42,636 nt of DNA, taken from NCBI GenBank assembly GCA_012839895.1, contig DUML01000054.1:1-42636 (forward strand), in the 5' to 3' direction. The position numbers and the translations under genes are program-made. Within the stretch, counting starts at the first letter, position 1, and each line of letters begins with the position of its first letter. Shown one piece after another: positions 38,552-41,500 of this stretch. The notes beneath the pieces are model-generated. The model saw only the letters and a program-made list of their open reading frames with translations. It was not told where the DNA came from and did no database searches. The stretch comes from Peptococcaceae bacterium (GTDB lineage: Bacteria > Bacillota > Desulfitobacteriia > Desulfitobacteriales > Syntrophobotulaceae).

Positions 38552-41500
38552 GTTTCAATCCACGCACCCGCACGGGGTGCGACTCCAGCCTTTGCGGATG
38601 ATGTCAAAGACTGCCTGTTTCAATCCACGCACCCGCACGGGGTGCGACAGAAACAAGCACTATTGATAATAAGCATTATCAGGTTTCAATCCACGCACCC
38701 GCACGGGGTGCGACGCTCATTACGTTTGCCAACATTGCGGGGAAATAGTAGTTTCAATCCACGCACCCGCACGGGGTGCGACCAAGTCCGCCAGACCAAA
38801 AAGAGCAAAGCCTGGGTTTCAATCCACGCACCCGCACGGGGTGCGACGATATAGCAGGTCAGGTAAAATCTGCCCTGGATGTTTCAATCCACGCACCCGC
38901 ACGGGGTGCGACAGAACTTGAGTCATATTTGCGTGCAATTACTCAGTTTCAATCCACGCACCCGCACGGGGTGCGACCTAATACATAAGGCCCAATATCA
39001 TAACTAAAAGTTTCAATCCACGCACCCGCACGGGGTGCGACACCGTAGCCGTTGCCATGTTGATTGGGTGGCTGAAGTTTCAATCCACGCACCCGCACGG
39101 GGTGCGACTGCCATTCAGCCGCAGGTCGAGCTTGTCAGCAAGTTTCAATCCACGCACCCGCACGGGGTGCGACTTCGAATAAGCCGTCCCGTCAACCGTT
39201 CCGTTAGTTTCAATCCACGCACCCGCACGGGGTGCGACAAGTATGTCATTTTCTTCGATATGATTTTTTTCAGTTTCAATCCACGCACCCGCACGGGGTG
39301 CGACGTGAGTTGGAAAAGGGAGGAGAAAAGGATATGTTAGTTTCAATCCACGCACCCGCACGGGGTGCGACTCTTTTGTATAGTTGGTTTTCTATGGTGG
39401 TTTATGTTTCAATCCACGCACCCGCACGGGGTGCGACCCAGTCTGCTGTGCTAACGGTATCGGTTATCGTGTTTCAATCCACGCACCCGCACGGGGTGCG
39501 ACATCGGGTTCCGCTCCGCTTTTATTCCGGGTATCTGGTTTCAATCCACGCACCCGCACGGGGTGCGACTTGTTATTCCAAGTCTGGCGGACAGCGTTTT
39601 ATTGTTTCAATCCACGCACCCGCACGGGGTGCGACAGGGTAGTAGAGATCAGAAAGGAGAAAAAGAGATGTTTCAATCCACGCACCCGCACGGGGTGCGA
39701 CCTGGGCGGTGCAAATGACAACGTAAGGCACAGGAGTTTCAATCCACGCACCCGCACGGGGTGCGACGAGAAAGAGGATTATGTCTTGGGCGGTGCAAAT
39801 GAGTTTCAATCCACGCACCCGCACGGGGTGCGACATCCTCTCCCTTAACTTATTTTTCTTGGCCTCAAGTTTCAATCCACGCACCCGCACGGGGTGCGAC
39901 GTTTTTGGGGGAGTGGTTAGCAAGTCATGATTGTTGTTTCAATCCACGCACCCGCACGGGGTGCGACTCAAGCTTTTGAGCGTGTTGATAAGGTTTTTCG
40001 GGTTTCAATCCACGCACCCGCACGGGGTGCGACAGGAATTCTATCATTCCACCTTGCAATTACCCTGTTTCAATCCACGCACCCGCACGGGGTGCGACAT
40101 ATATAGTATGGCTTAGTGGTGACTGTAATTACGTTTCAATCCACGCACCCGCACGGGGTGCGACCGCTTTGATCCGGACGTATACCGAGAAGTCATAGTT
40201 TCAATCCACGCACCCGCACGGGGTGCGACTTTTTAGCAGAATTGCCTTGGGGATGCTCCAGAGTTTCAATCCACGCACCCGCACGGGGTGCGACAGAGTT
40301 TCAGCGAATGCTATTACTTCCTTATTAGTTTCAATCCACGCACCCGCACGGGGTGCGACAATCTATCTTTTCCTTCTTTTTTTCCACTCTAGGTTTCAAT
40401 CCACGCACCCGCACGGGGTGCGACTTTTTTCAAGTTCCAAAGGAACAACCTTATAATAGTTTCAATCCACGCACCCGCACGGGGTGCGACATGAATTCAG
40501 TGTGTGGGTTCATAAAAACATTACTGTTTCAATCCACGCACCCGCACGGGGTGCGACCCTACAAAGTTAGGCTAGTGGATATCGTTAACAGGGTTTCAAT
40601 CCACGCACCCGCACGGGGTGCGACATGTGATTTGAGCCATTCTTATATATCAAAACTAGTTTCAATCCACGCACCCGCACGGGGTGCGACTCGATTACTG
40701 ATACAGTCAGCACTGCCGATTGGGGTTTCAATCCACGCACCCGCACGGGGTGCGACCCAAACAGTTCCGTTTCCTCCGGCTCGTTCTTGTTTCAATCCAC
40801 GCACCCGCACGGGGTGCGACATTTTTCTCCCTGCTCCCAGATACGGTCAGAAAGTTTCAATCCACGCACCCGCACGGGGTGCGACAACAGTAATTGAGAA
40901 TAGGGTAGAAGCTATTTGGTTTCAATCCACGCACCCGCACGGGGTGCGACATGCGTGTATTATTGCTTTACTTACTGCTGGCAAGTTTCAATCCACGCAC
41001 CCGCACGGGGTGCGACCTAAATAATTTGCGAATTGTGATACGTCTATTTCGTTTCAATCCACGCACCCGCACGGGGTGCGACATATATCTGTAAGTTTCT
41101 GTAATATTGATTGTAGTTTCAATCCACGCACCCGCACGGGGTGCGACGACAGTTTCCCCTAAATTACATAATTTTGGACAGTTTCAATCCACGCACCCGC
41201 ACGGGGTGCGACTTTAGTCCGCGCATTAGGCCGCGCGCAGTTGAGGGTTTCAATCCACGCACCCGCACGGGGTGCGACTGGCCAGGATGCCGCCAGATAT
41301 CTCCGGACCGAAGTTTCAATCCACGCACCCGCACGGGGTGCGACATAAAAATGATACAATTGTATACAGGAGCACCTGGTTTCAATCCACGCACCCGCAC
41401 GGGGTGCGACCCGGGTAGCGAGAAAACGTGAAATGGTGACAGAGTTTCAATCCACGCACCCGCACGGGGTGCGACGCTGGTATGCCGACATCAATTGTTG

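Follow-up and report, generated by a model that had tools for sequence, protein, structure and literature searches.

An overlap between two neighbouring CRISPR spacers of a Peptococcaceae bacterium raises the question of whether both were taken from one invading molecule or from two variants of it. The window, i.e. the whole stretch of DNA analysed, is 42,636 nt long and corresponds to an entire contig (C49) of the 2.84-Mb, 132-contig genome. It contains most of one array:

38552–42636, minus strand: type I-C CRISPR array with 62 identical 32-nt repeats and 61 complete spacers

The window ends with a 62nd spacer and a partial repeat, and the identical repeat resumes on contig C103 (L009, 14,819 bases), where 15 spacers adjoin cas genes. 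The array is of type I-C. The operon on C103 is complete (cas3, cas5c, cas8c, cas7, cas4, cas1, cas2), with both the effector set (TIGR01876 Cas5c, TIGR01863 Cas8c, TIGR02589 Cas7/Csd2 and cas3) and the acquisition genes (TIGR00372 for cas4, TIGR03640 for Cas1c, TIGR01573 for cas2) scoring above family cut-offs. The stretch from cas3 to cas2 contains no extra open reading frame, i.e. no separate cas6, and the absence of cas6 is typical of type I-C. In crRNA sense, i.e. on the window's minus strand, the repeat reads GTCGCACCCCGTGCGGGTGCGTGGATTGAAAC. The leader lies on C103 (∼13633–13802), past the high-coordinate end of the window, so spacers become newer with rising window coordinates, and spacer 18 predates spacer 19. 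Window spacers are denoted by W (W18 is window spacer 18) and those of C103 by C (C1 to C15), which gives a total of 76 spacers (61 in the window and 15 on C103).

The array forks between the two contigs (window 42562–42636; L009:14688–14819). Spacer C14, which is the 62nd spacer of the window, is present on both; past it, C15 and a repeat ending in ATTAAAAC follow on C103, and spacer 61 follows on C49. The fork resembles a branch in the assembly or variation between strains. On C103, the first repeat on the leader side (L009:13803–13834) and the last repeat (L009:14788–14819) have a common single base change, ATTAAAAC for ATTGAAAC, and the 14 repeats between them are mutually identical.

The two spacers that form the overlap are separated by a single repeat:

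39702–39735, minus strand: spacer 18 (34 nt), the older of the pair, shared stretch 39703–39718
39768–39802, minus strand: spacer 19 (35 nt), the newer of the pair, shared stretch 39787–39802

These positions, and a match of 16 nt at opposite spacer ends, had been given correctly in the first-pass annotation. No pair of the 61 complete window spacers has a longer match than this exact common sequence, TGGGCGGTGCAAATGA (maxima in 100 shuffles were 9–13 nt), and a shared 16-mer was obtained in none of 1000 shuffles of all 76 spacers. The full alignment extends over 17 nt with 16 identities: in crRNA sense, the end of W18 (TCATTTGCACCGCCCAG) is matched by the start of W19 (TCATTTGCACCGCCCAA), and the only difference, base 1 of spacer 18 as read in the window (C, against T in spacer 19), is the last, PAM-distal base of W18. 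Judged from this common sequence, which is located at opposite spacer ends, in register and beyond chance, spacers 18 and 19 are derived from overlapping protospacers. The two protospacers are on the same strand with an offset of 17 nt, and the joined stretch comprises 52 nt (35 + 17) instead of the ∼53 nt estimated earlier. Its proposed translation, EKEDYVLGGANDNVRHR, was correct, but the openness of the frame on which a coding stretch had been proposed is uninformative: three of the six frames are stop-free, which makes the peptide one of several candidates. The C/T mismatch would be synonymous in frames +0, +1 and −1 (codons read by eye). Spacer 18 also provides the upstream flank of spacer 19, which is ACGTTG in crRNA sense; the TTG deduced in the first-pass annotation, near-consensus relative to TTC, was thus upheld.

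The PAM of the array was established with spacers that could be mapped to phage sequences. A degenerate pattern for the site of W14 and W33 retrieved five viral fragments (L032–L036, records G061–G065), and a terminase search (80 loci kept) added four further records (G066–G069), giving nine records with 128,954 bases as fetched. G061–G065 were picked because they carry the W14/W33 site, and the other spacers had no role in the choice. At a match threshold of 70%, 14 of the 76 spacers matched the nine records at 51 places, and the same spacers reversed without complementing gave no match. Spacer C6, with a single match that contained 9 mismatches and had no PAM, was removed from the mapped set, so that 13 of 76 spacers map to one phage lineage. 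Proteins of the lineage include tail sheath, portal, terminase and head morphogenesis proteins, which identifies a contractile-tailed phage. A search through the terminase, run without a positive control, found no prophage of the lineage in the host. The mapped spacers within the window are as follows:

39438–39470, minus strand: spacer 14, exact in G061 and G065 with TTC; site of spacer 33, on the opposite strand
40691–40724, minus strand: spacer 33, 33 of 34 bases in G064 with TTC; TTT, TAC or TGC in other variants
40757–40853, minus strand: spacers 34 and 35 and the intervening repeat, same phage lineage, 4 mismatches each
41411–41508, minus strand: spacers 44 and 45 and the intervening repeat, each spacer exact in G061 with TTC
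41606–41638, minus strand: spacer 47, 3 mismatches in G063, CTC
42000–42097, minus strand: spacers 53 and 54 with the repeat between them, 53 exact in G065 with TTC, 54 with 8 mismatches and TTC

In the 23.4-kb record G065, all mapped spacers fall inside ∼8 kb (8413–16451; L087, L088) that contains head, neck and packaging genes, and none of the 76 spacers matches the remainder of this record at 70%. Within the array, the mapped spacers form the runs C12-13-14, W33-34-35, W44-45 and W53-54, i.e. 6 adjacent pairs among the 13 mapped spacers, compared with 2.06 expected (P = 0.0045). Given this clustering, the array as a whole is fairly described by bursts or priming from one lineage.

In agreement with type I-C, the PAM is of the TTC type and is located 5′ of the protospacer in crRNA sense. 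The seven spacers with 0–1 mismatch are flanked by TTC in five cases (W14, W33, W44, W45, W53), by CTC in one (C12) and by TTT in one (C13). For W34 the best match is a tie between TTC and TTT, and the best match of W35 has TCC, one base off TTC. In the best matches of all 13 mapped spacers, position −1 is occupied by C or T and in no case by G or A. With no G at this position, TTG is off-consensus in this array.

The C/T mismatch and the TTG beside spacer 19 together point to two variants of one locus, and spacers 18 and 19 probably originate from two close variants of one invader lineage and not from one molecule. The invader was presumably a phage. W18 would have been acquired first, from a variant with TTG at the position of the spacer 19 PAM; W19 would have been taken later from a close variant in which a PAM, probably TTC, is present 17 nt further along. 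The second acquisition may have been helped by priming, through partial recognition of the variant by spacer 18 or further older spacers. Because the source of the pair was found in none of the collections searched, the TTC variant is a prediction.

According to the first-pass annotation, the pair was left by primed or burst acquisition from one invader. The overlap, the type I-C assignment, the near-consensus flank and, for the array in general, a tendency of neighbours to match one phage lineage are supported; a single invader, as stated, is not supported, given the mismatch and the flank. For one molecule to be the source, spacer 19 would have been acquired through the off-consensus TTG, and the C/T difference would have arisen when the PAM-distal end of spacer 18 was processed incorrectly. 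This is in line with the adjacency of the two spacers and with the frequent origin of array neighbours from one lineage. A parallel for the error is found in spacer 33, whose single mismatch to G064 is likewise the last, PAM-distal base and differs there from all five mapped variants; the way in which spacer ends are processed may account for such a mismatch. Terminal mismatches of this kind, the one in W18 included, may thus arise during acquisition, in which case TTG alone argues against a single invader. Off-consensus PAMs are known in I-C acquisition: in a Legionella study, 2 of 22 primed I-C spacers had no consensus PAM (PMC5071653), and for some I-C groups TTN, CTN and CCN are given alongside TTC in a catalogue of PAMs (PMC8482600), so a TTG PAM is not impossible. 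However, a single invader requires two uncommon events together, G is found at −1 in none of the 13 best matches, and the last base is correct in six of the seven spacers mapped at 0–1 mismatch. A single source molecule therefore appears rather unlikely, and an origin from two variants is preferred.

No match beyond chance to the 52-mer or its peptide was obtained in any collection searched. In viral_contigs, the exact 16-mer occurred in 9 unrelated stretches (20–25 of 52 bases identical), the degenerate peptide pattern in frame +0 retrieved 49 stretches (best 30/52), and the peptide patterns in frames +1 and −1 retrieved none each. In genome_contigs, a 19-mer with C or G at the PAM base gave no hits and the frame +0 peptide pattern gave 6 stretches with 26–29 of 52 identities; the pattern searches in both collections would miss other frames or amino-acid changes in the core. 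Phage records yielded 1 match (E = 4) and plasmids none. The own genome contained the array itself and two places with 2 mismatches; in a set of 60 relatives and the own genome, the best E outside the array was 0.015, and among 73 and 82 genomes of the order and class (own included) only the array was found. As DNA, neither 12 phage records nor the nine records G061–G069 contained a match beyond chance, and in a six-frame comparison with 88 phage loci (the nine records included) every score was within the shuffle range.

This failure to find the source, together with the 9 unrelated viral stretches that show the exact 16-mer to recur in large collections, would fit a chance match or a motif common to two unrelated elements. 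Such an explanation is very improbable, as no shuffle of the 76 spacers reproduced the match, which moreover reaches the end of spacer 19 and stops one base short of the end of spacer 18, as expected of an overlap. Least probable of all, to the point of being negligible, is an assembly artefact joining the arrays of two strains: a fork of the assembly is present inside the array after C14 (C15 versus spacer 61), but it is >40 spacers away from spacers 18 and 19, and the sequence overlap stands even if the adjacency is false.

The preferred origin from two variants is supported by five further spacer pairs that are diverged copies of common sites (scores 36–52, compared with shuffle maxima of 22–29 in 20 shuffles). 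Four of them, W21/W55, C8/W58, C5/W56 and C6/W40, are on the same strand and have local scores of 41–52; the fifth, W14/W33 (score 36), represents one site in diverged versions read from opposite strands. W18/W19, with a score of 32, is the sole adjacent pair of the six and the closest in sequence, over a short overlap. The window members of the same-strand pairs are as follows:

39901–39935, minus strand: spacer 21, diverged copy of spacer 55 in the same register, score 52
42130–42164, minus strand: spacer 55, diverged copy of spacer 21
42331–42364, minus strand: spacer 58, diverged copy of C8 on C103, score 50
42197–42231, minus strand: spacer 56, palindromic, diverged copy of C5 on C103, score 46
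41148–41180, minus strand: spacer 40, diverged copy of C6 on C103 with one gap, score 41

Patterns for the C8/58 and 21/55 sites retrieved nothing from viral_contigs (0 and 0). Random placement of six overlapping pairs among the 76 spacers yields one or more adjacent pairs with a probability of 0.148, and the adjacency of spacers 18 and 19 is weak evidence on its own. Sampling models, in which a 40-kb length and the number of lineages were assumed, gave 2.54 overlapping pairs for 76 spacers placed randomly on one lineage (at least 6 in 6% of trials) and 1.4 for two lineages (at least 6 in 0.7%). With PAM constraints, one lineage gave at least 4 same-site pairs in 3% of trials, and two lineages in 0.5%. 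Under the most generous model, sites were thus resampled only slightly more often than chance predicts.

A direct precedent within the array is the 14/33 site, for which the variants themselves are available. The flank of spacer 33 is TTC in G064, TTT in G063, TAC in G062 and TGC in G061 and G065; spacer 33 thus has a consensus PAM in G064, the variant closest to it, and none in the variants that match W14. Spacer 14 differs from G064 at 7 positions with TTC retained, and all differences are at third codon positions, which leaves the peptide TITDTVSTADW unchanged. QSAVLTVSVI, the basis of the search pattern, was rejected as the coding frame of the site, the phage open reading frame being on the other strand (ITDTVSTADW). 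The 6-nt periodicity of mismatches tolerated by Cascade is known, and the spacer 14 mismatches in G064 at positions 6, 18, 24 and 30 were considered as tolerable in this way; this reading was discarded, because third codon positions force multiples of three and nothing can be concluded on tolerance. It is conceivable, as a tentative reading, that the array is a diary of one phage lineage's variants, in which six site pairs were resampled. At 14/33 and putatively at 18/19, the newer spacer would have become acquirable through a variant's PAM that is absent from the older variant, so that gain and loss of PAMs within a site would decide which overlapping spacer is taken next.

Like primed adaptation in type I systems, the array contains neighbour runs from one phage lineage with a consensus PAM, and an older spacer partly matches a later variant (spacer 14, with TTC and 7 mismatches in G064). 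Unlike it, the array offers sequence traces that are consistent with priming. A 2019 survey by Nicholson reportedly, according to its title, presents bioinformatic evidence of widespread priming. The closest parallel is Legionella pneumophila Toronto-2005, in which two I-C spacer pairs of one strain overlap on the mobile element LME-1; a changed PAM or seed weakens the older member of each pair, and the authors put forward naturally primed spacer uptake following escape (PMC5071653). Those pairs and 18/19 are alike in the CRISPR type, the location in one array, the overlapping targets and a PAM or seed difference between older and newer spacers. They differ in that the Legionella target element is known and its newer spacers are perfect matches, whereas the second variant behind 18/19 is deduced; the passages used for the comparison do not state whether the Legionella pairs are array neighbours, as 18 and 19 are. 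Spacers 18 and 19 are of the same kind as the Legionella pairs, an ordinary arms-race trace already described for I-C (PMC5071653). Since the phenomenon is known, the value of the locus lies in a further, well-documented case. If the two-variant origin is true, such spacer pairs reveal unseen phage variants from the host array alone, lead to a prediction that can be checked (here TTC next to the site of spacer 19) and offer natural material on how type I-C immunity tracks a diversifying phage. The mapped spacers also link the host to a contractile-tailed phage lineage that is seen here only as metagenome fragments.

One group of spacers has a further common feature. Spacer 56 (42197–42231) and C5 (L009:14098–14130) are both palindromic and mutually similar, and spacer 51 (41867–41900) has 15 nt in common with C5, with one mismatch and on the other strand, at scores near the shuffle range. 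The similarity of these three spacers suggests that the invader may carry a repeated dyad motif.
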